This document shows positions 37,382-52,386 of a stretch of DNA of 64,000 bases, piece by piece. Every line of letters starts with the position of its first letter. Position 1 is the first letter of the stretch. The stretch spans positions 1,240,001 through 1,304,000 of the forward strand of contig NZ_SJPI01000001.1 of assembly GCF_007859865.1 (NCBI RefSeq). Direction: 5' to 3'. The stretch comes from Rubripirellula amarantea. GTDB lineage: Bacteria > Planctomycetota > Planctomycetia > Pirellulales > Pirellulaceae. A program made the position numbers and the translations under genes. The notes beneath the pieces are model-generated. The model was not told where the DNA came from. It saw only the letters and a list, made by a program, of their open reading frames with translations, and did not search any database.

Positions 37382-39031
37382 TTGAATACGCACTTTTCCA
37401 TTACTGGCAGGCTAGTTGATGTCCACCATCGGGAAATTTACCCCGCTCGGGTGAACGTGGCCGACGGACGAATTGCTCGCATAGAACGAATCGAAGAACG
37501 ACACCTCGATTCATCAGGTTCGTTCTTGATGCCTGGCTTCGTCGATTCACACATTCACATCGAGAGTTCGATGGTTCTGCCGAGCGAGTTTGCTCGCGTG
37601 GCAGTGACTCACGGCACTGTGGCAACGGTCTCAGATCCCCACGAGATTGCCAACGTTTGTGGTATCGACGGCGTTGAATTGATGCTTCGCAATGCGGCTC
37701 AGACTCAATTCAAGTTTATGTTTGGAGCACCCGCGTGCGTGCCGGCCACCATTTTTGAAACCGCTGGCGGATGCCTGGATGTAGCGGCCGTGACGCGGCT
37801 TCTTGACGACGATCGCATTGGCTACTTGAGCGAAATGATGGACTTCCCAGGAGTCCTAAATCGCAATCCGCAGGTGATGCAGAAAATCGCCGCTGCCTTG
37901 GAACGCGGTAAGCCAGTCGATGGTCATGCGCCGGGACTGCGCGGCGAAGCGGCCGCTCGATACATCGCCGCAGGTATTACAACGGATCACGAATGCTTTA
38001 CGATTGACGAAGCGCTCGACAAAATCAACGCCGGTTGCAAGATCGCGATTCGCGAGGGTTCCGCAGCAAGAAACTTTGATGCGTTGCAATCACTCATCGA
38101 CCAATATCCCCAGTCCTGCATGTTATGCAGCGACGACAAACACCCCGACGAATTATTGCTCGGTCACATCAATCAAGTGGCAGCCCGCGCGATCGCTGCG
38201 GGACGAGATTTGATGAACGTGCTGCAGGTTGCCTGCGTTAATCCGGTTGAGCATTACCGAATGGAAGTCGGGTTGCTTCGCGAAGGTGATCCGGCGGACT
38301 TCATCGTTGTCGATGATCTTATCCATTTCGGGGCTAACCAGACTTACATCGGCGGCGAACTGGTGGCCCAGCGCGGCCAATGCTTGATGCCCAATGTTCC
38401 TACGGAAACCATCAATCACTTTGAAGCCAATCCGATCAGCGAAGACGCTTTGGCAATCCGAGCACGTTCGCAGAAAATTCGCGTCATCGAAGCCATTGAC
38501 GGGCAATTGATTACCAACTCAATCGTGCGGCAGTGCCTAAGCGTCAACGGTTTCGCTGTCGCAGACGTCCTGCGTGACCTGTTGAAGATCGTCGTTGTCA
38601 ATCGATACGCCAATGCGTTGCCATCGGTTGGCTTCGTGACGGGTTTTGGGCTTCAATCGGGTGCGATTGCGTCGTCCGTCGCCCACGATTCACACAACAT
38701 CGTCGCCGTGGGCACCAATGACTCGGACTTGGTCGCTGCGATCAATGCGGTCATCGGTAGTCGCGGTGGGCTGTCCGTCGCCGACCGCGGTCAGATCGAC
38801 GTTTTACCGTTACCGGTTGCAGGACTGATGTCGACACAGTCGTGCCAATCGGTCGGCACCCACTACAGCCAGATGGACGCTCGTGTGAAGGAACTCGGCA
38901 CACCGCTTCAATCTCCATACATGACGCTCTCGTTCATGGCGTTGCCGGTGATTCCGGCTTTGAAACTAAGCGACAAGGGATTGTTCGACGTCAGCGTGTT
39001 CAACTTCGTTTCGCTGTTTGTCGATGAATGA
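37382..39031 (+). CDS. ade: Adenine deaminase
   Basis: Amidohydrolase-superfamily enzyme converting adenine to hypoxanthine and ammonia. It has 549 residues, near the bacterial Ade length. Metal-binding PGFVDSHIHIESSMVLPSEF (about 52-71) is the Ade signature, followed by THGTVATVSDPHEIANVCG. Later elements include DGHAPGL, GITTDHECF, CSDDKHPDELL and the C-terminal SHDSHNIVAVGTND. The start is TTG at 37382, preceded by AAGGAA about 6 nt upstream. It opens the purine degradation island: its product hypoxanthine feeds the xanthine dehydrogenase encoded just downstream on the other strand. Confidence 0.95.
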   Translation: MNTHFSITGRLVDVHHREIYPARVNVADGRIARIERIEERHLDSSGSFLMPGFVDSHIHIESSMVLPSEFARVAVTHGTVATVSDPHEIANVCGIDGVELMLRNAAQTQFKFMFGAPACVPATIFETAGGCLDVAAVTRLLDDDRIGYLSEMMDFPGVLNRNPQVMQKIAAALERGKPVDGHAPGLRGEAAARYIAAGITTDHECFTIDEALDKINAGCKIAIREGSAARNFDALQSLIDQYPQSCMLCSDDKHPDELLLGHINQVAARAIAAGRDLMNVLQVACVNPVEHYRMEVGLLREGDPADFIVVDDLIHFGANQTYIGGELVAQRGQCLMPNVPTETINHFEANPISEDALAIRARSQKIRVIEAIDGQLITNSIVRQCLSVNGFAVADVLRDLLKIVVVNRYANALPSVGFVTGFGLQSGAIASSVAHDSHNIVAVGTNDSDLVAAINAVIGSRGGLSVADRGQIDVLPLPVAGLMSTQSCQSVGTHYSQMDARVKELGTPLQSPYMTLSFMALPVIPALKLSDKGLFDVSVFNFVSLFVDE

Positions 39032-39056: not shown

Positions 39057-39848
39057 TTAAACATTCTTGATACGGTCGCGGTGCTGTAGCAATTGCGCAG
39101 AGATACTAATTGCTATTTCGGCGGGTTGATTGGAACCGATGGGCAAACCGATCGGGCACAAAAAACTAGCCGCGGTTTCGGCATCTATCCCTTCCTCACG
39201 TAGCTCACGCTCGAGGACACCTCGCTTGGACTTGCTGCCGATCACGCCCAGGTACGCCGGACTTATCGCGTTCTGAAACAAAGTCGCCAAGACGGGCCGA
39301 TCGGTGGAGTGCCCCATGGTCATGCAGATGACGTAGTCATTTGAAGTCAATGTTGCAGCTACGGTCGTCAAATCATCAACGCACTTTTTAGTCAGTCTAG
39401 GATGGTCATCGATACGTTTCATCCATTCTATCCGTGTGTCGACGCAGGTAACGTGGCAATCCAGGGTACCCAGCACCTTCAACAAAGCCTGAGCCACGTG
39501 CCCGGCACCAAAGACGACGACGTGCCAGTGATCACGGTTGTAAACTTCGAAGTACAGCTTGACCAATCCACCGCACGTCATGCCAATGTCGCGTTGCAAG
39601 TTCCAGTCGACCAGGGCGCGACACCGACTCGGGTCGGCGAGCATCTCTTTCGCAAACTCAATCGCGTGAAATTCAACTTTTCCTCCGCCCACGGTTCCAT
39701 GCACCAACCCATTCGCATCAACGAGCATCTTTGAACCGGCGTCTTGAGGAGTGCTACCAATGGCTTCAACCATGGTCACAGCCACAAACGGCAAACCACC
39801 GGCGGCCAAACTGGCTAACGATTCGATATGGGAGACATTCTTGGTCAC
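39057..39848 (-). CDS. xdhC: Xanthine dehydrogenase accessory protein XdhC
   Basis: 263 residues. XdhC binds molybdenum cofactor and helps insert the sulfurated cofactor into xanthine dehydrogenase. The N-terminal XdhC/CoxI domain has TMVEAIGSTPQDAGSKMLVD and VHGTVGGGKVEFHAIE. The C-terminal Rossmann domain has VVFGAGHVAQALLKVLG and YLGVIGSKSKRGVLERELRE, ending CPIGLPIGSNQPAEIAISI. The start overlaps the xdhB stop by four bases (39845-39848), so it is the last gene of the leftward xdhABC operon. It converges on ade with a 25-nt gap. Confidence 0.95.
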   Translation of the reverse strand: MTKNVSHIESLASLAAGGLPFVAVTMVEAIGSTPQDAGSKMLVDANGLVHGTVGGGKVEFHAIEFAKEMLADPSRCRALVDWNLQRDIGMTCGGLVKLYFEVYNRDHWHVVVFGAGHVAQALLKVLGTLDCHVTCVDTRIEWMKRIDDHPRLTKKCVDDLTTVAATLTSNDYVICMTMGHSTDRPVLATLFQNAISPAYLGVIGSKSKRGVLERELREEGIDAETAASFLCPIGLPIGSNQPAEIAISISAQLLQHRDRIKNV

Positions 39849-42223
39849 GTGGAACTTTGGGCTGCGAGATGTTCACTAAGACAACGCAAAATTTCTTCAC
39901 CAGTCGCCGGTAAACGCAAACCTGGATCCACCTTTCCCGGCAATGACGCCAATGCGTTTTTCACGGCTGCCCAAGCGGCTACGCCAAGTAGCAACGGCGG
40001 TTCGCCAACAGCCTTGCTGCGACGAACGCAGTGCAGATTATCCTCATTGGGAAACATCTCGCAGCGAAAATCGGCCGGAACATCGGTGATCGCGGGAATC
40101 TTGTAGGTTGTTGGCGAATGAGAAAGTAACCGTCCAGCCTCGTCATAGACAAGGCATTCCGAAGTGACCCATCCCATTCCCTGGATGAAACCACCCGTGA
40201 TCTGTCCGATATCAACGCCAGGATTGATCGACTTCCCAATGTCCATCAACAAGTCGACACGCGGCACCGAAAGATCACCGGTGAAACGATCGATCTTCAC
40301 TTCCGCAACGGCTGCTCCCTGAGTGAAGTAGAGGAAAGGATTGCCTCGCCCCGTATCACGGTTAAAGTCCACTCCTGGCGTTTTGTAGAACCCCCTCGCT
40401 CCGATATCGATGCGTTCAAGTCGTGCACGATTGGCAAGATCGGGAAATGACAAACGGGATCCCGGTTGCCGCGAATCTCGAACGCAACCGTTCTCAAAAA
40501 CAATATGCTCTGCCGAAGGGATCAAACCCTCTTCACGGGAAGAAAAGATAGTCGCGGCAAACTCGGCCATGCGAGTCTTAATCAATCGGCACGCATCCAA
40601 CGCTGCCGCACCGTTTAAGTCGGTACCGGCCGAGGCCGCCGTGGGTGACGTGTTGTTATTCTTCTCGGTGGACGTTGGCATTACGATCACATGCCGGTAG
40701 TCGATTCCGAACTCGTCGGCCACCAATTGCCGAATCTTGGTGTTAAGACCTTGGCCCATCTCAGTGCCGCCGGTGGAAACCTGCACCGTGCCATCGGTGT
40801 AGACGTTCACCAAGGCATTGCCCTGGTTCAGGAACTTCGACGTGAACGAAATCCCGAACTTCACCGGCGTCATCGAAAGACCACGAAGGAACATTGGGTC
40901 ACGTTGATTGGACAACGCAATCTCGCTTGCCCGTTTGGTGTAATCGGACGTTCGCGCCAGCGTTGTCATGATTTCAGGCAAATGATTGCCACTGAAGTAC
41001 TGCCCATAGGGTGTTACGTTGCGATCAGTGGTCCCGTAAAGATTGCGAAGTCTGACGTCTAAAGAATCGACTTTCAAAAAGTCCGCAACTCTCTCGATGA
41101 TATTCTCAGTTGATGCAACAGCTTGGGGTCCGCCAAAACCTCGAAAGGCGGTATTGGGTGGATAGTGAGTACGGCAGACTTGACCATTGACTTCGATGTT
41201 CGCAAAGTAATAGGCATTGTCCGTATGCAACAACGTGCGTTCCATGATCGACGTCGATAAGTCCGCCGCTGCGCCGCCGTCGGAATAGTAGTCACACGTC
41301 AGACCCACGATCTCGCCATTGGGTTCGAAACCGACCTGCCAACGACAAAGGTAGCCGTGTCGTTTGCCGGTGACACACATATCGGTGTCTTTGTCGTAGA
41401 CGATCCTAGCAGCACGACCAGTATGGTTGGCGACCATTGCAACCATCAAAGCCGGGATCACCGCCTGAGTTTCCTTACCACCAAACGCGCCGCCCATGCG
41501 TTTGCAAACGCAGACGACTTGGTGCATGGAAAGACCAAGCACTTCAGCGACCATCGTCTGAATCTCGGTCGTGTTCTGAGTTGACGAGTGAACGACCAAC
41601 TGTCCTTGCTCGCCGGGGTACGCCGCGGCAGCTTGCGATTCGAGATAAAACTGTTCCTGCCCACCAATTTCAAATTCACCGGACAACTGGTGAGTCGCCG
41701 TCGCGATTGCTAGATCAGGATCGCCTCGACGAATTTGCCGACGCGGACCAATGAAGTGCTCACCGGCTACCGCGTCTTTGATCGAAAGGACCGGTTGGGA
41801 TGGCTTGACATGGATCTTGACCAACGCACACGCTCGCCTGAGAGCTTCCGAAGTGCTTGCCGCGATCACTACGACCGGTTGCCCCACATACAACACTTCT
41901 GCATCCGCTAAGAAAGGTTCGTCGCATATGATCGGACCAAATAGATTGTGCTCGCCAACGTCAGCATAAGTAAGCAGACACGCAACACCTTCCACTTCCT
42001 TGGCGGCTTCGAGCTCAATCGATGTAATGGTTCCAAAAGCGATGGGGCTCCCCACAAAGCCCACGAACAACTCGTCTTCTCGACGCGGTAGGTCGTCAAT
42101 GAACGGAGCCGAGCCGGTCACATGACCAATGGCTGAATCATGCGGAATGGTTCGACCAACCGACGGATCAACCTTGTCTGCCACTGCCGAACCGTCTTGC
42201 ACTTGTTGGACAAGCTTATTCAC
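39845..42223 (-). CDS. xdhB: Xanthine dehydrogenase, molybdopterin-binding subunit
   Basis: 792 residues, the usual length for the stand-alone large subunit. It oxidises hypoxanthine to xanthine and xanthine to urate at the molybdenum centre. Seen in order: an N-terminal Ald_Xan_dh a/b-hammerhead (GHVTGSAPFIDDLPRREDEL), the glutamine-loop region CKRMGGAFGGKETQA, NTAFRGFGGPQAV with the substrate-positioning Arg, STGGTEMGQGLNTK, and KAVGEPPLLLG with the catalytic Glu near residue 750. It overlaps xdhA and xdhC by four bases on each side. Confidence 0.96.
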   Translation of the reverse strand: MNKLVQQVQDGSAVADKVDPSVGRTIPHDSAIGHVTGSAPFIDDLPRREDELFVGFVGSPIAFGTITSIELEAAKEVEGVACLLTYADVGEHNLFGPIICDEPFLADAEVLYVGQPVVVIAASTSEALRRACALVKIHVKPSQPVLSIKDAVAGEHFIGPRRQIRRGDPDLAIATATHQLSGEFEIGGQEQFYLESQAAAAYPGEQGQLVVHSSTQNTTEIQTMVAEVLGLSMHQVVCVCKRMGGAFGGKETQAVIPALMVAMVANHTGRAARIVYDKDTDMCVTGKRHGYLCRWQVGFEPNGEIVGLTCDYYSDGGAAADLSTSIMERTLLHTDNAYYFANIEVNGQVCRTHYPPNTAFRGFGGPQAVASTENIIERVADFLKVDSLDVRLRNLYGTTDRNVTPYGQYFSGNHLPEIMTTLARTSDYTKRASEIALSNQRDPMFLRGLSMTPVKFGISFTSKFLNQGNALVNVYTDGTVQVSTGGTEMGQGLNTKIRQLVADEFGIDYRHVIVMPTSTEKNNNTSPTAASAGTDLNGAAALDACRLIKTRMAEFAATIFSSREEGLIPSAEHIVFENGCVRDSRQPGSRLSFPDLANRARLERIDIGARGFYKTPGVDFNRDTGRGNPFLYFTQGAAVAEVKIDRFTGDLSVPRVDLLMDIGKSINPGVDIGQITGGFIQGMGWVTSECLVYDEAGRLLSHSPTTYKIPAITDVPADFRCEMFPNEDNLHCVRRSKAVGEPPLLLGVAAWAAVKNALASLPGKVDPGLRLPATGEEILRCLSEHLAAQSST

Positions 42224-43710
42224 ACGCTGACTCCTTCTGACGTCGTCTGGTAGTAGAACTTTGCCAAGACATTCCGAGCTAATTGGATTCGAAATTCATG
42301 GCCACCGCGGACATCCGATATCGGTGAAATTTCACTGACAGCGATGTCACCGGCTTCCCGCATGGATTCAAGGCTAAAGGAACGACCTCGGAGGAACGAT
42401 TCTGTTTTCCGCAGTCGAAGCACCACCGGCCCTACTGCTCCATAAGCGATTCTTGAATCAACAATCAAATCACCATCACGCTCAATTTGAATGGCCGCGG
42501 TGAACGTGCTGATGTCCAGATCGCGACGACGCGACACCTTGTACAAGCGTAAATCAGCGGTTGGAGGAGGCATTGGAATTCGAATGCGAGTGAGCAACTC
42601 GCCACGCCGCAGGTCAAACTTCTTGTAATCCTGATAGAAGTCGTTGATGTTGACTATTCGCGTCCCCCCAGCACTTTGCAATTCTAGTTCCGCACCACAC
42701 ACCATTAAGAACGGCAACGAATCGGCAATGGGCGACGCGTTGATAATGTTGCCGCCAATGGTTCCGACGTGGCGGATCTGAGGTGAACCAAAGATGGAAA
42801 GGATCTTGTGAAATTCAGGTGCGGTCGTTTTGCATAGGTGTTCCAAATTAGTCCAGGTCGCACTCGCCCCCGCGATGATGGATTGATCCTTCCACTCGAT
42901 GTCTGTCAACTCATCCACTCGACTCAGATCAAGCCAATGGCTGGGACTGCAAATTCCCTTATTGAACTGAACGCCAACGTCCGTCCCCCCGGAAATGATT
43001 TTTGCACCTGGAAACTCTTGCAAGAAGGCAATTGCTTGGGCGAGCGAACGCGGCGATGCAATCACTTGCGTTTCGCCATCGATCGACTCGTTTTCGACGC
43101 GGACCTCATCATCACCAACTGATCGAACAGCATCAGCCATTTGCATCGCAGGGTAGCGCTGGTTCATGGAAGGCGAACTCACTGCTGCCGCTTGGCGTCC
43201 CGCAGCAACGATTGGCGAGTACCCCGTGCATCGACATAAGTTACCCGTCAAACCACTACGCCACTCTTCTTCGGACGGGTTGTTGTTCTGTTCAAGAATT
43301 CCGGTCATCGCGACTACGAAGCCCGGAGTGCAAAAGCCGCACTGGGATCCGTGGCAATCGATCATCGCTTGCTGAACGCTCGTTAGAGTTTCGTTCTGCT
43401 GGGTTTGCTTGGGTAATGCATTCAATGGTGGGCCATCCGCTAGCCCCTCAACAGTGATGATGTGACAGCCATCAAGCTGAAAAACAAAACGTATGCATGA
43501 ATCAATCGGCAGGTAGTGAATTGCTTCACCCGATGTGTTGATTCGACCGCAAAGAACAGAACAAGATCCGCAATCGCCTTCCGAGCAAACAATCTTGGTG
43601 CCACACAACTTGAGTGTCTTGCGAAGAAAAACTGAGAGCGTCAGAAATGCATCATCTCCCTTAATGAGATGCTGGCGTCCATTGACGAACAGTAAGGTAT
43701 GATTCCGCAT
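42220..43710 (-). CDS. xdhA: Xanthine dehydrogenase, FeS/FAD small subunit
   Basis: 496 residues from ATG 43710, giving the natural ferredoxin start MRNHTLLFVNGRQHL. The plant-type 2Fe-2S site uses Cys 42, 47, 50 and a later Cys near 72. The second 2Fe-2S domain has GSQCGFCTPGFVVAM and NLCRCTGYSPI. The FAD domain (about 215-390) has AKIISGGTDVGVQF and GNIINASPIADSLP, and the CO_deh_flav_C tail ends it. It passes electrons from the Mo subunit to NAD+. A longer start at 43752 is possible but adds an Arg/Cys-rich stub. First gene of the leftward operon. Confidence 0.95.
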   Translation of the reverse strand: MRNHTLLFVNGRQHLIKGDDAFLTLSVFLRKTLKLCGTKIVCSEGDCGSCSVLCGRINTSGEAIHYLPIDSCIRFVFQLDGCHIITVEGLADGPPLNALPKQTQQNETLTSVQQAMIDCHGSQCGFCTPGFVVAMTGILEQNNNPSEEEWRSGLTGNLCRCTGYSPIVAAGRQAAAVSSPSMNQRYPAMQMADAVRSVGDDEVRVENESIDGETQVIASPRSLAQAIAFLQEFPGAKIISGGTDVGVQFNKGICSPSHWLDLSRVDELTDIEWKDQSIIAGASATWTNLEHLCKTTAPEFHKILSIFGSPQIRHVGTIGGNIINASPIADSLPFLMVCGAELELQSAGGTRIVNINDFYQDYKKFDLRRGELLTRIRIPMPPPTADLRLYKVSRRRDLDISTFTAAIQIERDGDLIVDSRIAYGAVGPVVLRLRKTESFLRGRSFSLESMREAGDIAVSEISPISDVRGGHEFRIQLARNVLAKFYYQTTSEGVSV

Positions 43711-43769
43711 CGAAAGACCTTGGCAGCATCGGGGAGATCGTCGCAGCAGCAAGCAAGACGAACATTACA

Positions 43770-43832
43770 AGTATAGTAACTGCATAGCATCCAACGATAA
43801 CCGCACTTTGGCAACCTTCAACCACAGCCAAA
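43770..43832. promoter_or_regulatory. Divergent promoter/operator region of the purine island
   Basis: Lies between xdhA (left) and allC (right). TTTGGC (43807-43812) and GCCAAA (43827-43832) form a 6-bp inverted repeat with a 14-nt spacer, as expected for a dimeric regulator site. On the left strand TATACT at 43775-43770 could be a -10 box for xdhA, 60 nt upstream of its start; no good -35 was found. No regulator gene lies in the island, so any factor acts in trans. Confidence 0.3.
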
Positions 43833-43870
43833 ACAACAACCACAGAACAGCGTTAGCAGCCGCCCTCTTC

Positions 43871-45151
43871 ATGACTGATTCATCTCCATGCGAAACGGAA
43901 CCAAGTGTCCTGCGGTCTGCTGCAGAACGAGTGGTCGAGCGATGCCTTCGTCTAGCAGAGTATTCCGATGATCCAGGTAAGCTGACCCGAACGTTTTGCT
44001 CGCCCGCGATGAAGAGTGCTCACGCCGAATTATCGACGTGGATGCAGGACGCGAAGATGGACTGCGTTCTTGATCCGGTCGGCAACTTAATCGGCAAGAC
44101 CCGTCATCGCGCCAACAATGACATCTTCATGATTGGATCTCACTTAGACACCGTCATCAACGCAGGTCGTTTTGATGGACCGCTGGGAGTATTGCTTGGG
44201 CTCGCGGCCGTCGAAGTACTCAACGAATACGAATCGAAGATGTCGTTTGGGATTCACGTCGTCGGATTCTCTGAAGAGGAAGGTGTGCGATATCGGTTTC
44301 CCTTCATCGGATCTCGCGGGATCGCCGGACGCCTTGATGACTCGGAACTCGATCGAGTCGACGCGGACGGCATCAGCATCCGTTCGGCTCTCTCATCGTT
44401 CGGGTGCAATCCCGCGAAGTTGAATTCGGCTAGTTACGCCGACAAACGCCTTGTCGGATTCATGGAAGCGCACATCGAGCAAGCGGTTGTCCTTGAGGAA
44501 TCGTCGTTACCGGTTGGAATCGTATCCGCGATCGCCGGTCAAACACGTGCAAAGATTTTGATCGAAGGCGTTGCCGGTCACGCTGGTACGGTGCCCCATC
44601 ATCATCGACGCGACTCTTTGGCGGCGGCGGCTGAATTGATCCTGAAGATCGAATCGCTTGGCAAACAAACACCGGGCTTGTTCGCTACCGTGGGTTGCGT
44701 TGATGCTAGCCCCGGATTATCCAACGTGATTGCCGGACGAACAGAACTAAGACTAGACCTCAGACACGAGAACGATGAAGAGCGAACGAAGGCTTTTCAA
44801 TCCATCGACCAATGCCTGGGCCAAATCAGTCAAGAACGTGGTGTTCGAGGAAGCTTCGAAGCAATTGAACACACGCCTGCGGTGATCATGGACTCATATT
44901 TGTCAGGCCTGCTTGCAACCGCCACCCAAGAAACAATCTCGAACGTCACCTCGATGGTCAGTGGCGCCGGTCACGACGCCATGCTCATGTCGAAAATCAC
45001 ACCGACGTGTATGTTGTTCATACGTTGCCACAATGGGATCAGTCATCATCCCGACGAAAGTGTTACCGCCGAAGATATTCACGTCGCCTTGTGTGTGATG
45101 GTGAAAACGTTGATGGAACTAAACCAACGGGCTTTGGGCACGACCACATAG
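43871..45151 (+). CDS. allC: Allantoate amidohydrolase
   Basis: M20-family di-metal hydrolase of 426 residues that converts allantoate to ureidoglycine, CO2 and ammonia. Metal and catalytic segments are IGSHLDTVINAGRFDGPLGV (about 90), FSEEEGVRYRFPFIGSRG (with the adjacent Glu pair), HIEQAVVLEESSLPVGIVSA and MVSGAGHDAMLMSK, with the last His in ISHHPDE. HIEQ and the RF-x-GP-x-GV loop separate AllC/hydantoinase-like enzymes from peptidases. The same fold includes ureidoglycolate amidohydrolase and beta-ureidopropionase, but neighbours favour AllC. An in-frame ATG at 43808 would add a Gln/Asn/His-rich tail. It starts the rightward ureide run, with 85 nt to the next gene. Confidence 0.9.
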   Translation: MTDSSPCETEPSVLRSAAERVVERCLRLAEYSDDPGKLTRTFCSPAMKSAHAELSTWMQDAKMDCVLDPVGNLIGKTRHRANNDIFMIGSHLDTVINAGRFDGPLGVLLGLAAVEVLNEYESKMSFGIHVVGFSEEEGVRYRFPFIGSRGIAGRLDDSELDRVDADGISIRSALSSFGCNPAKLNSASYADKRLVGFMEAHIEQAVVLEESSLPVGIVSAIAGQTRAKILIEGVAGHAGTVPHHHRRDSLAAAAELILKIESLGKQTPGLFATVGCVDASPGLSNVIAGRTELRLDLRHENDEERTKAFQSIDQCLGQISQERGVRGSFEAIEHTPAVIMDSYLSGLLATATQETISNVTSMVSGAGHDAMLMSKITPTCMLFIRCHNGISHHPDESVTAEDIHVALCVMVKTLMELNQRALGTTT

Positions 45152-45236: not shown

Positions 45237-46001
45237 ATGACGTCCAACGCACCGCTCGTCTTCGGAAGTACTCGTAGCCGCGTGGAGCGAAACTACGCAT
45301 TAATTACTCCTGACACTCACGTCAATTCGCCGTTGATTGGTTGGACGGAAGCGACGGCAGTCATTCACATTTCGCCGGAAATGGGTGCTCGATTCACTCA
45401 GTACACTGCCATGCTTGCCGCGGGCGGTAGGAGCGGTTCAGCAGGGCCCGGGGTAGAACGCTTTATCTATGTGACGCAAGGTTCCATTGTCCTATCGACG
45501 CAATCGGATCGCTCACTCTCGGTGGGTTGCTACGCCTTCATCCCTGCTGATTCGGAAGTGTTTTTTTCCTGTGACCAATCGGCCACTTTGGTCGTTTTCG
45601 AAAAACAATATGTACCGCATCCAGATTTCGAACCGCCGGCGATGGTGGTGGGTAACGCTAAGGAAGTGGAAGGGGTGCCATTCATGGGCGATCCCGATGC
45701 AGTCTTGCAAACGTTTTTGCCGATCTCGCCTGAGTTTGATATGGCCGTCAATTTGTTCACCTACCAGCCCGGCGCTACCCTTCCGCAAGTCGAAATTCAC
45801 GTGATGGAACACGGCCTGATCATGACGGACGGGCAAGGCATCTATCGTCTTGGTGAAGACCACTTCCCTGTCGCTGCCGGCGACGTGATTTGGATGGCGT
45901 CGTACTGTCCCCAATGGTTCGTAGCGATGGGCAAAAAACCAGCCAGCTACCTTTATTACAAAGACATTCACCGCGACCGATTAAGCGAGAAATTTCAATG
46001 A
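45237..46001 (+). CDS. allE: (S)-ureidoglycine aminohydrolase
   Basis: Double-cupin Mn enzyme of 254 residues that hydrolyses (S)-ureidoglycine to (S)-ureidoglycolate and ammonia. The N-terminal start FGSTRSRVERNYALITPDTH and the C-terminal cupin QVEIHVMEHGLIMTDGQGIY supply the E-x-H-x3-H metal set, with the final Gln in YCPQWFVAMG. Length equals the family norm (about 260). Its stop overlaps the uricase start by four bases (45998-46001), so the two are coupled. It is the last recognised enzyme on the classical path. Confidence 0.93.
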   Translation: MTSNAPLVFGSTRSRVERNYALITPDTHVNSPLIGWTEATAVIHISPEMGARFTQYTAMLAAGGRSGSAGPGVERFIYVTQGSIVLSTQSDRSLSVGCYAFIPADSEVFFSCDQSATLVVFEKQYVPHPDFEPPAMVVGNAKEVEGVPFMGDPDAVLQTFLPISPEFDMAVNLFTYQPGATLPQVEIHVMEHGLIMTDGQGIYRLGEDHFPVAAGDVIWMASYCPQWFVAMGKKPASYLYYKDIHRDRLSEKFQ

Positions 46002-46846
46002 GCGTGATTCTTACCAATCAATCTTACGGCAAATCTCAAGTCTGCTTGTCCTACGTTACCCGACGCGACGGCATTCATGATTTCATTCAAATCACCGTCG
46101 ATGTGGCACTCGAGGGTGACTTTCACGCGGCCTATCTTGAAGGTGACAACTCCAATGTCGTTCCCACGGACACCGTGAAGAACACGGTTTACGCGATCGC
46201 TCGCATTCATGGCGTCGAGTCAATCGAATCGTTTGCTCAACACCTAGCCAAGCACTTCTGTAAGACCTATCCACAAGTGGATTCGACAACCGTGTCGATT
46301 AGCCAAACATTGTGGACACGGGTTTGTCGTGACGGCGCATCACATGACCACGCGTTTGTCGGTGGCAGCAATGAACGCAACACGTGCCGAGTTGTCGCAA
46401 CCAACGATTCGCTGCTGATGCATTCGGGGTTGCTTGGTTTACAAGTCCTAAAGACAACTGAATCCGGATTCGTGGGCTTCTCGAAGGATCAATACACGAC
46501 GCTGGCCGAAACAACCGATCGCATCTTCGCCACGACGATTACGGCAGACTGGCCGTGTGGTGACCCAACGCTCGATTGGACTCAAATTCGCGATACCGTT
46601 CGAGGTTGCTTGTTAGACATCTTCTCGAACCGCTATAGCCCATCAGTTCAAAAAACGCTTCACGAGATGGCGGAAGCCGTACTTGAAGAATGCCCCCAAA
46701 TCGACGAGATCGCACTCAAAATGCCAAACCAACATCACATCCCTGCCGATATCGCGAAGCTTGGCCTCGAGAACAACAATGACATCTTTGTTCCATCGCC
46801 AGAGCCGTTCGGCGTGATCAGCGCAACCATCCGTCGGGTTGCCTAG
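45998..46846 (+). CDS. pucL: Factor-independent urate oxidase (uricase)
   Basis: Cofactorless tunnelling-fold enzyme that oxidises urate to 5-hydroxyisourate and H2O2. It has 282 residues from ATG 45998. YGKSQVCLSYV gives the catalytic Lys (residue 12). VPTDTVKNTVYAIAR contains the Thr of the Thr-Lys dyad and the conserved KNT. IDEIALKMPNQHHIPADI near the C-terminus holds the catalytic His. FSKDQYTTL is the usual F/Q substrate loop. The Bacillus PucL is fused to OHCU decarboxylase at its N-terminus; here the uricase is free and the decarboxylase is fused to the next protein instead. Confidence 0.94.
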   Translation: MSVILTNQSYGKSQVCLSYVTRRDGIHDFIQITVDVALEGDFHAAYLEGDNSNVVPTDTVKNTVYAIARIHGVESIESFAQHLAKHFCKTYPQVDSTTVSISQTLWTRVCRDGASHDHAFVGGSNERNTCRVVATNDSLLMHSGLLGLQVLKTTESGFVGFSKDQYTTLAETTDRIFATTITADWPCGDPTLDWTQIRDTVRGCLLDIFSNRYSPSVQKTLHEMAEAVLEECPQIDEIALKMPNQHHIPADIAKLGLENNNDIFVPSPEPFGVISATIRRVA

Positions 46847-46850
46847 CACG

Positions 46851-48710
46851 ATGGCAGAACCATCCACCGCAGCGTTCGCTATCACCAGCACTCGAGTTGT
46901 TACTCCCGAGGGCGAGGTCGACACAGCCATCGTGATCGAGGGCGACAAAATCAGTGAGCTGAAGAACCGCGCGGAAATCCCTTTTCACATGCCACTGATC
47001 GATGTCGGCGACTCGATGGTTTCGCCTGGCATTATCGACGCTCACGTTCATGTCAATGAACCCGGACGAACGAACTGGGAAGGTTTCGAAACCGCAACGC
47101 GCGCGGCTGCTGCTGGGGGTGTTACCACGATCATCGACATGCCTTTGAATAGCAGTCCAGTAACGACGACGGTTGAAGCACTTCGCATTAAGCAAGCCGC
47201 CGCGCACGGCAAGTGCGCCGTAGACGTTGGTTTCTATGGTGGGTTGGTACCGGGCAATGAGAACGATATCGCCAAACTGGTTGATGCGGGCGTGATGGGT
47301 ATCAAAGCCTTTCTGTGTGATTCGGGCTTAGATGAATTTCCAGCCGCGGGCGAGAAAGAGCTTCGTTCCGCGTTGCAGACTTTGCGAAGCAAAAATGTTC
47401 CTCTGCTTGCTCATGCGGAAGTTGTCGGAAACACGATTACGATTGCTGACCCAAGGTCCTATAACGACTACGCAAATTCGCGACCGGAAAGCTATGAGAT
47501 CGCCGCGATCAAACAACTGATTGATCTTTGTCGCACCTATGTGACCCCGATTCACATCGTTCACCTAGCCACAAGCGCTGCGCTATCAATGATTGCCGAA
47601 GCAAAGGCGGAAGGCTTGCCCATCACGGTGGAAACCTGTCCTCACTACCTGTTCTTCGAAGCTGGCCAGATTGGTGAAGGTCAAACGAGTTTTAAATGTG
47701 CTCCGCCCATCCGAGATCAAACCAATCGTGATCTGCTCAGGGATGCCGTTGCGTCAGGTATCATCGAAACGGTGGGCTCGGATCATTCGCCGTGCTCGCC
47801 AGACTTGAAATGCCTTGAAACCGGTGACTTCTCGAAAGCGTGGGGAGGTATTGCAAGTCTGCAACTTACGCTTAGCGTGATGTGGACGATCGCCAAAGAG
47901 GCTGGTTGGACGCCGGGACTGCTGGCGGAACGATTGTCTCATCGTCCCGCTGAAGTATTCGGTCTCGGATCAACCAAAGGTCGAATTTCACCCGGCTTCG
48001 ATGCGGACTTGGTCATTTGGGACCCCGCCGGATCGTTCGACGTACACGGTCATGAACTCGGCCATCGCCACGACGTCACTCCTTATGAAAACCTTCAATT
48101 GCTTGGAAGAGTCGAGCAAACTTATCTGCGAGGGAAGCTGATTTACCAAGCTGGGTCATTAGTCGGTGATCGCGTGGGCAAACTGTTGCACCGTCAATCA
48201 AATTGTCTGCTAGCGAGTCGCCTCAACAGCATGAACGACACCCAACTTGCCGATGCATTGGAAACATGTTGTGCATCAAAGACATGGATCCAACAGATGA
48301 TTTCCGGTGGGCCATTCAAAGACGACAAAGAAGTAGTCACACGTTCAACTGAAGCTGGGCAAACTTTAGGTGAAGCCGATTGGTTAGAAGCGTTCTCGGC
48401 ACACCCTCGCATCGGAGACATTGACTCACTTCGCCAAAAGTACGCCAATACAAAATCCATTGCGGGCAATGAGCAGTCCGGAGTCAACGATGCCAGCGAC
48501 AAGGTCCTTCATCAGTTGTCCGCGGCTAACGATGCCTACTACGACAAGTTCGGTTTCATCTTCATCGTTTGCGCAACTGGTAAATCTGCGGCCGAAATGC
48601 TCGCGATACTCGAACAGCGATTACCGCTTTCTCGTGATCAGGAACTCGCCAATGCTGCCGTCGAACAACTCAAAATCACCGAAATTCGACTGAGAAAACT
48701 AATCCCATGA
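46851..48710 (+). CDS. allB-uraD: Bifunctional allantoinase / OHCU decarboxylase fusion
   Basis: 619 residues in two enzymes. Residues 1-448 are allantoinase: metal-binding DAHVHVNEPGR (His 65 and 67), carboxylated Lys 152 in GIKAFLCDSG, LLAHAE (His 188), IHIVHLATS (His 238) and VGSDHSPC (Asp 311). Residues about 455-619 are OHCU decarboxylase: CCASKTWIQQM, DWLEAFSAHPRIGD with catalytic His 518, AGNEQSGV with the conserved Glu-Gln, and KFGFIFIVCATGKSAAEML. The first half hydrolyses allantoin to allantoate; the second makes (S)-allantoin from OHCU. The product of one active site is thus the substrate of the other. ATG 46851 is preferred over TTG 46839. uraH starts within the stop codon overlap. 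Confidence 0.95.
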   Translation: MAEPSTAAFAITSTRVVTPEGEVDTAIVIEGDKISELKNRAEIPFHMPLIDVGDSMVSPGIIDAHVHVNEPGRTNWEGFETATRAAAAGGVTTIIDMPLNSSPVTTTVEALRIKQAAAHGKCAVDVGFYGGLVPGNENDIAKLVDAGVMGIKAFLCDSGLDEFPAAGEKELRSALQTLRSKNVPLLAHAEVVGNTITIADPRSYNDYANSRPESYEIAAIKQLIDLCRTYVTPIHIVHLATSAALSMIAEAKAEGLPITVETCPHYLFFEAGQIGEGQTSFKCAPPIRDQTNRDLLRDAVASGIIETVGSDHSPCSPDLKCLETGDFSKAWGGIASLQLTLSVMWTIAKEAGWTPGLLAERLSHRPAEVFGLGSTKGRISPGFDADLVIWDPAGSFDVHGHELGHRHDVTPYENLQLLGRVEQTYLRGKLIYQAGSLVGDRVGKLLHRQSNCLLASRLNSMNDTQLADALETCCASKTWIQQMISGGPFKDDKEVVTRSTEAGQTLGEADWLEAFSAHPRIGDIDSLRQKYANTKSIAGNEQSGVNDASDKVLHQLSAANDAYYDKFGFIFIVCATGKSAAEMLAILEQRLPLSRDQELANAAVEQLKITEIRLRKLIP

Positions 48711-49042
48711 CTGGAATCACCTCGCACGTCCTGGATACCTCGCTCGGAAAACCTGGCGCAGGCATTCGAATCACGCTGGAACAAGCAGAAGGATCCAATT
48801 GGATCTCGTTGGGCGAAGGCGTTACCAACGATGATGGTCGAGTTGCCGACTTGTCCAATGGAAACGTCACGGAAGGCGAATATCAAATCACGTTCTTCGT
48901 CGCTCAGTACTTTGAAGAACGAAATGTGGAAACGTTCTATCCAATCATTCGGATTGCGTTTTCGATCGTTGATGCTCAACAACATTATCATGTACCGCTT
49001 CTACTTAATCCGTTCGGTTTCTCAACGTACCGCGGAAGCTGA
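48707..49042 (+). CDS. uraH: 5-hydroxyisourate hydrolase
   Basis: Transthyretin-like hydrolase of 111 residues that opens 5-hydroxyisourate to OHCU. It begins GITSHVLDTSLGKPGAGI, the HVLD signature with catalytic His, and ends FGFSTYRGS, the obligatory C-terminal Y-R-G-S. No periplasmic signal is present, so it is cytosolic, like the fused decarboxylase that takes its product. The start overlaps the previous stop by four bases (48707-48710). Confidence 0.96.
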   Translation: MTGITSHVLDTSLGKPGAGIRITLEQAEGSNWISLGEGVTNDDGRVADLSNGNVTEGEYQITFFVAQYFEERNVETFYPIIRIAFSIVDAQQHYHVPLLLNPFGFSTYRGS

Positions 49043-49095: not shown

Positions 49096-50079
49096 ATGGA
49101 AAACCAAATTTTCTTAGACAAAGACGCCGATCTAAAGGTGCTCGAAAACAAAAAAATAGCCATCATCGGCTACGGAATCCAAGGCCGCCCGCAAGCGTTG
49201 TGCATGCGAGACAGTGGCTTGGACTTGATCATAGGAGTGGGTTCAAAAACGCGGTCATCGTGGGGCGCCGCGATCGAAGATGGGTTTGAACCGGTTTCAA
49301 TCGAAGAGGCGACGGCGGCTGCGGATTTGGTTTACATCTTGCTCGCAGATCCTCCCCAGCCCGAGATCTATTACGCATCCATTCATGAGCATCTGAAACC
49401 CAACAGCACGCTTGCGTTTTGCCACGGCTTTAATGTTCTTTACGGAGCAATCAAGCCGCCTGAAAATGTGAACGTGGTACTGTTCGTGCCCAACGGTCCC
49501 GGTCACACGGTCCGGCAAAAGTACTTGGACGGCTCTGGTATCTATGGTGCGATTTCGGTCGAACAAGATGTTACCGGCAACGCACTGGACATGGTGCTTG
49601 CGCTTGCGAAGTCCGTGGGTAGCCTGCGTGTAGGCTCGGTTGGCGTGACGTTTCAACAGGAAACCGAGGGCGACAATTTCGAGGAACAAGTGTTGTACGG
49701 CGGAGTCATTCATTTGATGAAGGCGACGTTCGACACGATGGTCGCCGGCGGCTACCCGCCGCACTTTGCGTACGCAAAGGCGATTCGATCACTCCGCACC
49801 GTTGTCGACGTGATGGATGAAATTGGTATCGAGGAATACATTTCGCGCCGCTCTAGTCGCACATGCGAGTTCGCCGTTCGCAAAAGTGGCCCGAGGGTTG
49901 TCAACTACGAAGAAGTGCAAAAGATCTTTGACGAAACTGAACGTGGCGAGTTTGCGGCAAATTGGATGCAAGAATGGACACTCGGAATGCCACGCTTGCA
50001 TCGCATGCGAAGAACAGGTGCCGAATCCAAGATGGAACAAACCGGTCGCGAGTGGCGCGAAAACTTTGGTAAGGGTTAA
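49096..50079 (+). CDS. Ketol-acid reductoisomerase homologue with altered active site, in a ureide operon
   Basis: 327 residues, close to class I KARI in length. Clear KARI features: KIAIIGYGIQGRPQALCMRD (Rossmann loop at 25-30), AFCHGFNVLYG (His 110), VPNGPGHTVRQKY, QETEGDNFEEQ and SSRTCEF. Compared with KARI as I remember it, Asp 193 and Glu 197 (first metal pair) are kept. The Lys of PKGPGH is Asn 133, and the two Glu of the YFExxHEL helix are Lys 228 and Ser 232. Acetohydroxyacid isomeroreduction therefore seems unlikely. It lies between uraH and an M20 hydrolase, so an NAD(P)-dependent reaction on a ureide or its 2-oxo acid, such as ureidoglycolate oxidation, is the working guess. ATG 49096 is chosen over GTG 49084. 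Confidence 0.85.
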   Translation: MENQIFLDKDADLKVLENKKIAIIGYGIQGRPQALCMRDSGLDLIIGVGSKTRSSWGAAIEDGFEPVSIEEATAAADLVYILLADPPQPEIYYASIHEHLKPNSTLAFCHGFNVLYGAIKPPENVNVVLFVPNGPGHTVRQKYLDGSGIYGAISVEQDVTGNALDMVLALAKSVGSLRVGSVGVTFQQETEGDNFEEQVLYGGVIHLMKATFDTMVAGGYPPHFAYAKAIRSLRTVVDVMDEIGIEEYISRRSSRTCEFAVRKSGPRVVNYEEVQKIFDETERGEFAANWMQEWTLGMPRLHRMRRTGAESKMEQTGREWRENFGKG

Positions 50080-50089
50080 GTGACGTTCG

Positions 50090-51301
50090 ATGATCTCTCT
50101 TGAAACTGCCGGCCAAGTCACGCAGCAACGACTCGCCGCCCTGACCCACTTCACTCAGCGCATTGTTCAGACCCCTAGTCTTTCGGGGCATGAAGGCGAT
50201 GCGGCCGCGCTGATCGTGCGTGAAATGGAGTCGCTCCGCTACGATGACGTCTGGGTGGACGAAGTGGGGAACATCATTGGAAGGATCAAGGGTGGCAATG
50301 GTCCCACGATCATGCTCAATGGACACATGGACGTCGTTGACCCAGGTCCCGACGAAGGTTGGCCGCACGCGGCGTACAGCGGCGAAATTGTGGATGGGCA
50401 TTTGTGGGGTCGCGGTTCGGTCGACATGAAAGGACCGGTTGCCGCCATGATTTACGGTGCATCGCTTTTTAAGCATCTCGACATTCAACCCACTGGCGAT
50501 GTCTTGATGACGGTCGCGGTAATGGAAGAAATCGGCGGCCTTGGCAGCCAGTTTCTAGTCGAGCACACGCAAGCCGATGGAGCCATTGTTGGCGAGCCGA
50601 GCGAAAACGAGCTGCGCCTCGGCCATCGGGGACGCATCGAGGTTCAAGTTAAGTTCCATGGTCGATCCGCGCATGCGAGCGTGCCGCACTTGGGGATCAA
50701 TCCGCACTTTGCCGCAGCCGAGTTCCTTAACCGACTCGACGAAGTTTCGCTTGGTTGTGATCCGGTGCTCGGCCAATCGACGATTGCTCCCACACTCTAT
50801 CAAACCGATCAGGTCAGCCCGAATGTTATCCCTAGCGAAGTCACGTTATTTCTCGATTGGCGAAACGTTCCGTCGGAGACTCCCGAACATGCTCGGAGTG
50901 TACTGCAAAAGTTAGCAGAAGCTTGCGCAGCCGATGGTTCCGATCCGCCCGAGGTAACGGTGACGCATCGTGTGTTTGACACCTACACCGGAGCGAAACG
51001 AAACTTTGCCGCCGTCTTTCCGCCCTTTGCAACTTCGCCCACCGACGCATTAGCACTAGCAGCAGCAAAAGTGATTTCGAATGCGACGGGGCAAACTCGT
51101 GCTGGTGTTTGGCAATTCGCGACCGATGGCGGTCATTTAATGAGTGCAGGAATTCCAGTGGTCGGTTTCGGCCCTGGCGACGACCGACTGGCACACACCA
51201 ATCAAGAACGAATCAACATCGCCGAGCTGCAACTCGCTGCGGCCACCTATACGCCCCTTTGCATCGCTTTGGCTTCGGCAATTGAAAAAGGGACTTTGTG
51301 A
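50090..51301 (+). CDS. M20-family metallohydrolase, YgeY-like
   Basis: 403 residues. Zinc ligands and base are visible: NGHMDVVDPG (His 79, Asp 81), GRGSVDMKGPVAAM (Asp 112), AVMEEIGGLGSQFL (Glu 146 base, Glu 147 ligand), IVGEPSENELRLGHRG, and the final His in GDDRLAHTNQERI. The dimerisation domain lies at about 195-310. The sequence style matches the ArgE/DapE group and in particular YgeY, an M20 protein that sits in purine and uric-acid degradation clusters of enteric and gut bacteria; its substrate was not known to me. It follows the KARI-like gene by 10 nt. Ureidoglycolate or oxalurate hydrolysis is plausible and not shown. Confidence 0.9.
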   Translation: MISLETAGQVTQQRLAALTHFTQRIVQTPSLSGHEGDAAALIVREMESLRYDDVWVDEVGNIIGRIKGGNGPTIMLNGHMDVVDPGPDEGWPHAAYSGEIVDGHLWGRGSVDMKGPVAAMIYGASLFKHLDIQPTGDVLMTVAVMEEIGGLGSQFLVEHTQADGAIVGEPSENELRLGHRGRIEVQVKFHGRSAHASVPHLGINPHFAAAEFLNRLDEVSLGCDPVLGQSTIAPTLYQTDQVSPNVIPSEVTLFLDWRNVPSETPEHARSVLQKLAEACAADGSDPPEVTVTHRVFDTYTGAKRNFAAVFPPFATSPTDALALAAAKVISNATGQTRAGVWQFATDGGHLMSAGIPVVGFGPGDDRLAHTNQERINIAELQLAAATYTPLCIALASAIEKGTL

Positions 51302-51369: not shown

Positions 51370-51954
51370 TTAATCATCCGATCCTGATCGGCCGTTGTAA
51401 ACCTTCGCACCGCTTGCGGCGAACTCTCGAAACATATCGCAAGCTTGGTCCGCGAGCACATCTTCAATGACATCGATCCCGCGTGACTGAAGTTCGTCTT
51501 GCCAACGCGGATGAATGGGACCTTCATCGAATCCGGTGATCGTTTCGATTTGTTCACCGCTCGCGCCAATCACGAGCGAACGGATGCCTGACCAAGGAAG
51601 CGACCCAAAGCACATCGCGCAAGGACGTCCGTTGACGACCAAACGGTGATGCGGCATTCCCGGTCCACCGAGATCAAAAGTCTCCAACGACTGTTGAGCC
51701 AACGAGAGGGCTACGATTTCGGCATGAGCCGACGAGACATGTTCTGGAACCACACGATTCACACCAATCGCAATCAGTTTTCCGGTTTCCTTTTCGAACA
51801 CCCCCGCTGCAAAAGGCCCACCGGTTTGGTTCTGGAAATTCAAACGGGAAAAATGAATCACGGCTTCCATCTGCGCTTCGGTGGACGTCAGATGGGTCGG
51901 CAGCTTTGTCTGCTCCGTAAGGACCCACGCAGGAATTTCAATGGAAACGCGCAT
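51370..51954 (-). CDS. Guanine deaminase-like CMP/dCMP-type zinc deaminase
   Basis: 194 residues from ATG 51954. The zinc site is SSAHAEIVAL (His 77, Glu 79) and GRPCAMCFGSL (Cys 112, Cys 115), the cytidine deaminase-fold signature. The helix FSRLNFQNQTGGPFAAGVFE and the C-terminal FDEGPIHPRWQDEL resemble Bacillus-type GuaD, which turns guanine to xanthine. tRNA adenosine deaminase shares the motif, but the location facing the purine island favours guanine deaminase. It is convergent with the M20 gene (68-nt gap). An ATG at 52071 would add a basic tail and is less likely. Confidence 0.82.
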   Translation of the reverse strand: MRVSIEIPAWVLTEQTKLPTHLTSTEAQMEAVIHFSRLNFQNQTGGPFAAGVFEKETGKLIAIGVNRVVPEHVSSAHAEIVALSLAQQSLETFDLGGPGMPHHRLVVNGRPCAMCFGSLPWSGIRSLVIGASGEQIETITGFDEGPIHPRWQDELQSRGIDVIEDVLADQACDMFREFAASGAKVYNGRSGSDD

Positions 51955-52386
51955 CAGATGTTTCTTCGTGATGTAGTAAGCAAGTTTGAATCGGCGAGCT
52001 GATTCTATCGCGTTTTGATGATTTTTGCTCCCAGGGAAACGAGATCGACGTGGCAAAGAACGATCACTCAAAACGAATCAGCGGTAACGAAACTCCAGAA
52101 ATCGCGTTGTGAGCGCGATCGTGAAAAGTCCGATTGTCGCCTTAAGCAACCCTAGCCGACTGCAAGATAAGAATCAGCGTCCATCGCCTGAGGGTGCCTC
52201 TAGATCCACCCACTCGCCAAGACCGTTGAACAACCCAACGATACGCGACTTCGGTACGACTTGCGGTTTAGCCAACCGCACCCTTATCAGCGAATAGCGG
52301 TGTGGCAACGGCTCCGCTTTTCAACGGACGCCGCTGCCTTAGTGACGCCGGGCGCAGTTCGCACGGACAAGCACGTTGGCTTTCGC
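51955..52386. other. Intergenic region between guanine deaminase and outer-membrane-like gene
   Basis: 432 bp upstream of the leftward deaminase gene and downstream of the next leftward gene. Two small hairpins are visible: ATCGCG/CGCGAT at 52101-52119 (7-nt loop) and TGCGGTT/AACCGCA at 52262-52280 (TAGCC loop). Neither has a T tract. No coding frame looks real. The deaminase promoter must be in here but was not located. Confidence 0.5.

Follow-up and report, generated by a model that had tools for sequence, protein, structure and literature searches.

The window analysed here is a stretch of 64,000 nucleotides from Rubripirellula amarantea. It carries a gene resembling ketol-acid reductoisomerase (KARI, ilvC, EC 1.1.1.86), the textbook branched-chain amino acid enzyme, inside a run of purine-breakdown genes (Table 1), which raises the question of what such a protein does there. 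We consider it likely that the gene encodes an (S)-ureidoglycolate dehydrogenase of EC 1.1.1.154, converting (S)-ureidoglycolate to oxalurate, as judged from genomic context, residue conservation and alternation with other enzymes across genomes. That the protein acts somewhere in ureide breakdown, in a role distinct from acetolactate conversion, is held with greater confidence.

Table 1. Features of the window and of related loci (L numbers) discussed in the text
Feature	Coordinates	Strand	Details
KARI-like protein, proposed (S)-ureidoglycolate dehydrogenase (oxalurate-forming)	49096..50079	+	residues N133, D193, E197, K228, S232
Allantoate amidohydrolase-type M20 hydrolase (AllC)	43808..45151	+	NCBIfam PRK09290.2-5, 495.8 vs cut-off 479
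(S)-ureidoglycine aminohydrolase (AllE)	45237..46001	+	TIGR03214, 284 vs cut-off 200
Urate oxidase	45998..46846	+	TIGR03383, 318.4 vs cut-off 168.4
Allantoinase fused to OHCU decarboxylase	46839..48710	+	TIGR03178 and TIGR03180 above cut-offs; Pfam
5-hydroxyisourate hydrolase (uraH)	48707..49042	+	TIGR02962, 138.6 vs cut-off 87.45
M20 hydrolase, YgeY/DapE-like	50090..51301	+	below cut-off in each of the 25 best NCBIfam models shown
Xanthine dehydrogenase-type large (792 aa) and small (510 aa) subunits	39845..43752	-	Pfam MoCo-binding, FAD_binding_5, Fer2_2
OTC-like carbamoyltransferase	L012:9321-10406; L009:3862 on; L010:11018 on		homologues in L008, L011, L013, L014
ATC-like carbamoyltransferase	L010:8786-9775; L012:1264-2262		also in L013, L014, L023, L024, and in L092, L095

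The gene order uraH, KARI-like gene, M20 hydrolase, given in a preliminary description of this DNA, was found again, with gaps of 53 bases (counted from the ATG) and 10 bases, respectively. AllE, the expected producer of the substrate, belongs to the same run and is separated from the KARI-like gene by three genes. The xanthine dehydrogenase-type genes, together with an XdhC gene (39060-43752), are divergent from the rightward ureide run. Another purine gene of the window encodes an adenine-deaminase-type amidohydrolase (37382-39028, plus strand; Pfam Adenine_deam_C and Amidohydro_1), homologues of which adjoin KARI-like genes in loci L032-L036. A cytidine-deaminase-type deaminase, possibly a guanine deaminase, is encoded at the end of the purine island (51370-52071, minus strand; TadA 40.1, cut-off 150). 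The fusion partner of the OHCU decarboxylase varies, being allantoinase in the window and an AllC-type M20 hydrolase in a Phycisphaerales locus (L033:10976-12769).

The open reading frame encodes 327 amino acids from its Met. An alternative GTG start four codons upstream (49084) would give 331 amino acids; the alignment of the closest relatives begins at the Met, not at the GTG. Both Pfam domains, KARI_N and KARI_C, were detected at class I length, and all four NCBIfam matches are ketol-acid reductoisomerase models. The protein passes the ilvC equivalog TIGR00465 (284.9, cut-off 226.15) and just misses PRK05479 (324.6, cut-off 336), so that an automatic pipeline would probably name it ilvC. 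Its identity to canonical KARI copies is 36-41%. The KARI length, the fold motifs and the first metal pair, Asp193 and Glu197 of the DxxxE motif, were said to be retained in the preliminary description, and the domain matches and the alignment agree with this. An AlphaFold2 model, built with 28 of the 42 family sequences as alignment input, reached a mean pLDDT of 82.7, and all 50 PDB matches listed by Foldseek are KARIs, with TM scores of 0.70-0.78. The residue geometry of the model was set aside, because it is a monomer of an active site that we take to be built from two subunits and because the Foldseek rmsd was about 15.5-16.3 Å despite those TM scores. Compared with four close relatives, dN/dS of the gene was 0.015-0.066 in three and undefined in one, at dS values of 1.4 to 4.9 that place the ratios near or past saturation.

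Scanning GTDB 220, one genome for each species, with the KARI-like protein as query revealed 41 relatives with 59-91% identity to the window protein. By label, they belong to Planctomycetota (18), Spirochaetota (8), Chloroflexota (6), Verrucomicrobiota (3), Bacillota (2), Thermodesulfobacteriota or 'Deltaproteobacteria' (2, one of them labelled Myxococcota in the tree), Synergistota (1) and Gemmatimonadota (1). The family is thus spread over lineages labelled as about eight phyla, labels which may err since 40 of the 41 relatives come from records titled as metagenome-assembled genomes, the exception being Rubripirellula obstinata. The family is rare: within the window's phylum it was found in one of 392 genomes (E 1e-105), and within the class of L012 in two of 396 (E 1e-78). 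The latter search was also meant to reveal sequences intermediate between canonical KARI and the family; only these two genomes matched, both of them known members.

For comparison, 41 full-length family sequences (40 loci and the window; the partial copy L044 was left out of alignment and tree) were aligned with 30 canonical KARIs from the window's own genome and 29 family genomes. The best-scoring canonical copies were taken. One of 31 canonical loci, L076, was missed by the motif filter, and weaker canonical KARIs, six spirochaete copies included, stand outside the alignment. Positions 133, 228 and 232 are Asn, Lys and Ser in 41/41 family sequences and Lys, Glu and Glu in 30/30 canonical KARIs, which bears out the exchanges that the preliminary description had proposed. 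Every full-length member thus has the Asn-Lys-Ser combination sought as a check of that proposal, and these homologues are linked to allantoin genes. Such invariance excludes chance; Lys228 and Ser232 recur in the partial copy L044. Asp193 and Glu197 are present in all sequences of both sets, and His110 and Ser254 are likewise common to both. Altogether, 13 positions are diagnostic between the 41 family and the 30 canonical sequences (131, 133, 150, 192, 194, 196, 201, 215, 227, 228, 232, 234 and 260), along with an inserted residue at 246 and a one-residue deletion after E197-Q. Several of them flank the metal pair, where the family has EGDNFEEQ or EGDNYEEQ and canonical KARI has ETDLFGEQ; this stretch was partly selected for, because EGDNFEEQ was among the six patterns of the scan, none of which covers positions 133, 228 or 232. 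In a maximum-likelihood tree the 41 family sequences were split from the 30 canonical ones with 100/100 support and a long stem. Pirellulaceae copies cluster with Chloroflexota copies and L010 (100/97), suggesting that the gene has moved between phyla. Judged by alignment and tree, the KARI-like proteins form a distinct family derived from KARI.

The genome of R. amarantea possesses a second, canonical KARI gene on another contig (C3:428485), so the separate ilvC that the preliminary description asked for is present. Two KARI_N genes were detected in 38 of the 41 family genomes (E 1e-20). The three genomes with one match have the KARI-like gene only (G394, G396) or the canonical gene only (G432), in the last case because its KARI-like copy, L044, is cut by a contig end. 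Six spirochaete genomes (G410, G414, G417, G419, G429 and G431) have a weaker second match, situated in a long frame of 496-755 amino acids, perhaps a class II KARI. The canonical gene of G427 and G428 is located about 1 kb from a match that appears to be of acetolactate-synthase type. As a control for linkage the canonical loci are weak, with fetched stretches of about 3.5 kb or less.

Genes encoding AllE were detected by tblastn in 36 of the 41 family loci, on the same strand as the KARI-like gene in 35. The preliminary description had named homologues lacking purine linkage as evidence against its proposal, and this is not what the loci contain. AllE lies directly upstream, on the same strand and with a gap below 300 bp, in 30/41 loci; in the window, L004, L005 and L007 it belongs to the cluster at more than 3 kb from the KARI-like gene. 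Eight of eight AllE proteins tested scored above the TIGR03214 cut-off. The loci without AllE are L006, L015, L018 and L044 (contig end no more than 600 bp from the KARI-like gene) and L038, which lacks AllE but possesses AllC and allantoinase. AllA was found neither in the 41 family genomes nor in the window's own genome. AllD over cut-off was found in none of the 41, and the AllD model (TIGR03175) had no match in the own genome. More distant AllD relatives below cut-off (E 1e-30) occur in 16 of the 41 family genomes and could share ureidoglycolate dehydrogenase activity. The KARI-like gene is thus linked to AllE in genomes without AllA or cut-off AllD, within the completeness of metagenome-assembled genomes, as which 40 of the 41 records are titled and in which gene absences are soft.

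The reciprocal search, for AllE in the window's phylum, gave ten of 392 sampled genomes including the window's own, nine of them above cut-off. The surroundings of AllE were fetched for eight others; G347, whose AllE consists of two fragments below cut-off, is outside the fetched set. AllD over cut-off is encoded on the AllE contig in five genomes, adjacent to AllE in G250 and G330, with one gene between in G260 and G269, and at about 2.5 kb in G347. AllF and AllG homologues accompany AllD in G250, G260, G269 and G330. A second AllC-type M20 hydrolase, perhaps a ureidoglycolate amidohydrolase, adjoins AllE in G198, G242 and G356 (NCBIfam check for G242). The AllE gene of G184 is near the end of a 3.7-kb contig, with no AllD match in the whole genome and no second M20 in view. 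The KARI-like gene is confined to the window's genome among these ten; eight of the others gave canonical-level matches to the KARI-like query (36-41% identity) and G260 gave none. Two of the three solutions (AllD, second M20, KARI-like gene) were not seen together in any of these genomes, the M20 having been sought in the fetched stretches. Across the AllE genomes, this alternation looks like non-orthologous replacement.

The preliminary description had suggested that an NAD(P)-dependent dehydrogenase had been recruited to act on ureidoglycolate, and we arrive at the same proposal from the separate ilvC, the allantoin-linked Asn-Lys-Ser homologues and the missing AllD and AllA matches. The Lys of the PKGPGH motif and both Glu of the helix that follows, which we take to be needed for alkyl migration and for holding the second metal, have given way to Asn, Lys and Ser, so that loss of acetolactate isomerisation is expected. 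The reductase half of the KARI reaction may survive the loss of residues for the second metal or the alkyl shift. In the proposed reaction, AllE would supply (S)-ureidoglycolate, which the KARI-like enzyme would bind through its 2-hydroxy-carboxylate head at the Asp193/Glu197 metal site. The C2 hydride would pass to NAD(P)+, yielding oxalurate. The isomerase step would have been lost, and the hydride-transfer (reductase) half would be retained and run in reverse as an oxidation. Substrate, direction and metal use are what we infer; NAD and NADP are not distinguished, because the loop near residues 47-57 differs between family members in both length and charge.

Several descriptions of KARI and its homologues are compatible with this chemistry. 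In canonical KARI, isomerisation of acetolactate comes first and reduction to (2R)-2,3-dihydroxyisovalerate second, and the enzyme uses two Mg2+ together with Asp and Glu as catalytic residues (PMC11264209). By our own CIP reasoning, (S)-ureidoglycolate would have the same spatial arrangement at C2 as (2R)-dihydroxyisovalerate. Going by its entry title, PDB 6bul holds a canonical KARI with a hydroxyoxamate inhibitor bound. Dehydrogenation of ureidoglycolate itself is described for AllD, which prefers NAD+ (PMC3527362). BurG, a KARI homologue, is reported to oxidise a 2-hydroxy acid transiently with NAD+, and in one crystal a bound hydroxamate was reduced to a hemiaminal at the KARI metal site (PMC9359912). 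By analogy, this would be the same kind of carbon change as from oxalurate to ureidoglycolate. The preliminary description spoke of a new role for the fold. BurG is an earlier example of a KARI taken into a new role, other than the one proposed here (PMC9359912). Among the papers listed in searches of the open-licence literature, none was seen to link a KARI homologue to ureidoglycolate or allantoin, and the word 'ketol' is absent from the main text of PMC12507026 and PMC12625717.

If oxalurate is the product, the genes further downstream become relevant. In L008-L014 (six Chloroflexota and one spirochaete) an OTC-like carbamoyltransferase is encoded one or two genes downstream of the KARI-like gene, as expected for oxalurate use. 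Carbamoyltransferases were found in nine of the 41 loci and carbamate kinase in six. AllFGH convert oxalurate to oxamate and carbamoyl phosphate, and until 2024 the gene for oxamate carbamoyltransferase was not known from any strain (PMC11326118). AllF, AllG and AllH homologues were found in none of the 41 family loci. Of the 14 NCBIfam models that match the OTC-like copy of L012, none is reached at its cut-off (best PRK04523, 259.7, cut-off 288), and this gene is a candidate single-gene oxamate carbamoyltransferase. FixC-like flavoprotein and electron transfer flavoprotein subunit genes are present inside Chloroflexota ureide clusters (L009:5178-8602, and L014 by homology clustering). Glycine decarboxylase P-protein genes adjoin the ureide cluster in L012 (15179-17973, by homology) and L038 (5892-8739, by Pfam), which suggests that glycine is also an intermediate in some lineages.

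The ATC-like carbamoyltransferase, present in six loci, was also considered as the oxamate enzyme. By comparison with E. coli PyrB, the carbamoyl-phosphate residues and R167 are conserved in all six aligned copies, but R229 and Q231 are exchanged for Gly and Ser. The candidate was dropped because two AllD genomes (L092 and L095) carry it together with AllF/AllG, with no AllC within the fetched stretch, and because pseudo-ATCases have been proposed to act at another step, as ureidoglycine transcarbamylase (Barba et al., PMC4016543). By this analogy, the ATC-like protein may serve that step.

No oxalurate-consuming enzyme was recognised in the uricase-bearing loci, the window included, and this missing consumer is the main weakness of the dehydrogenase reading. 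A search of these loci for an oxalurate hydrolase gave nothing convincing: apart from one amidohydrolase-family protein (L027:7453-8862), the open reading frames tried belonged to unrelated families or had no match, and several of them are probably artefacts of simple ORF calling. Consumption of oxalurate by the M20 hydrolase of the window is possible; it is a candidate only because each of the six Pirellulaceae loci (L004-L007, L044 and the window) has a homologue downstream of the KARI-like gene. This homologue comes directly next in four of them, and one open reading frame lies between in L006 and L044. This intervening gene encodes a YhcG-type PDDEXK nuclease (DUF1016, Pfam) in L006 (1049-2215), and that of L044 (165-1484) belongs to the same cluster.

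Other roles for the KARI-like gene have to be weighed against the dehydrogenase. It could be simply a second ordinary ilvC, an acetolactate isomeroreductase, as automatic annotation would have it since TIGR00465 is passed. We regard this as very improbable, and reject it, since a separate canonical copy exists in the own genome, with two KARI_N genes in 38/41 family genomes, and the Lys, Glu and Glu fixed in 30/30 canonical KARIs are all replaced; the identified neighbours, moreover, are purine or unrelated genes. Less easily dismissed, though unlikely, is the second suggestion of the preliminary description, an NAD(P)H-dependent, GlxR-like reductase of a downstream 2-oxo acid such as glyoxylate, hydroxypyruvate or tartronate semialdehyde. 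Glyoxylate is one possible breakdown product of ureidoglycolate, and glxR sits in the allantoin region of E. coli. Furthermore, hydroxypyruvate was reduced by a KARI-fold enzyme in the BurG assay (PMC9359912). However, AllA, which would make glyoxylate, was found in none of the 41 family genomes, and glyoxylate carboligase over cut-off in none of 25 genomes (the own and 24 of the 41; below cut-off at E 1e-100 in six), which makes a GlxR-like role alongside glyoxylate carboligase unlikely. The position of the gene also speaks against such a reductase, as it adjoins AllE in most loci, the place of AllD in some related genomes, and precedes a carbamoyltransferase in seven.

The missing oxalurate consumer in uricase-bearing loci would fit a redox-neutral or amine-directed enzyme, in which bound NAD carries out a hidden redox on ureidoglycine or ureidoglycolate, for example in racemisation or C-N cleavage, with no net oxidation. 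A concealed redox cycle of this type is known from BurG, itself a KARI (PMC9359912). Nevertheless, the carbamoyltransferase and carbamate kinase beside the anaerobe-type members suit oxalurate, and AllD alternates with the KARI-like gene in the phylum sample; we find this explanation improbable, more so than the 2-oxo acid reductase. Returning to the ureidoglycolate dehydrogenase, we lean, by a narrow balance, towards a broader proposal: an isomerase-less KARI would have replaced AllD independently and, in anaerobes, would form together with the single-gene OTC-like oxamate carbamoyltransferase, of a family other than AllFGH, a complete second oxamate branch hidden under the names ilvC and ornithine carbamoyltransferase.

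The finding provides candidate genes for the oxamate branch in bacteria where AllF, AllG and AllH were not seen beside the allantoin genes. Because the KARI-like protein passes the ilvC equivalog model, genomes can gain a redundant ilvC and lose the ureidoglycolate step in annotation. The family is also a natural test of which KARI residues run which half-reaction.

Similar to class I KARI (IlvC, TIGR00465/PRK05479), the KARI-like protein has the length, both Pfam domains, the Rossmann motif, D193/E197, H110 and S254; it differs in the exchanges K to N, E to K and E to S, in its purine context and in being a second gene copy. With AllD, of the L-sulfolactate dehydrogenase-like family, it shares the proposed reaction and the neighbourhood at or near AllE, whereas it belongs to another sequence family and matches KARI models only. 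BurG is likewise a member of the KARI family recruited to another pathway, with transient oxidation of a 2-hydroxy acid; that pathway is a different one, and BurG keeps a catalytic Glu (E232 in its own numbering) and two Mg (PMC9359912). It is also more distant in sequence, with 137 bits for 7pcc and 250-289 for the three best KARI chains. At the level of gene order, the genome of E. coli carries AllE-AllC-AllD beside fdrA-ylbE-ylbF (AllFGH) and carbamate kinase, and L008-L014 and the loci with carbamate kinase resemble this arrangement.
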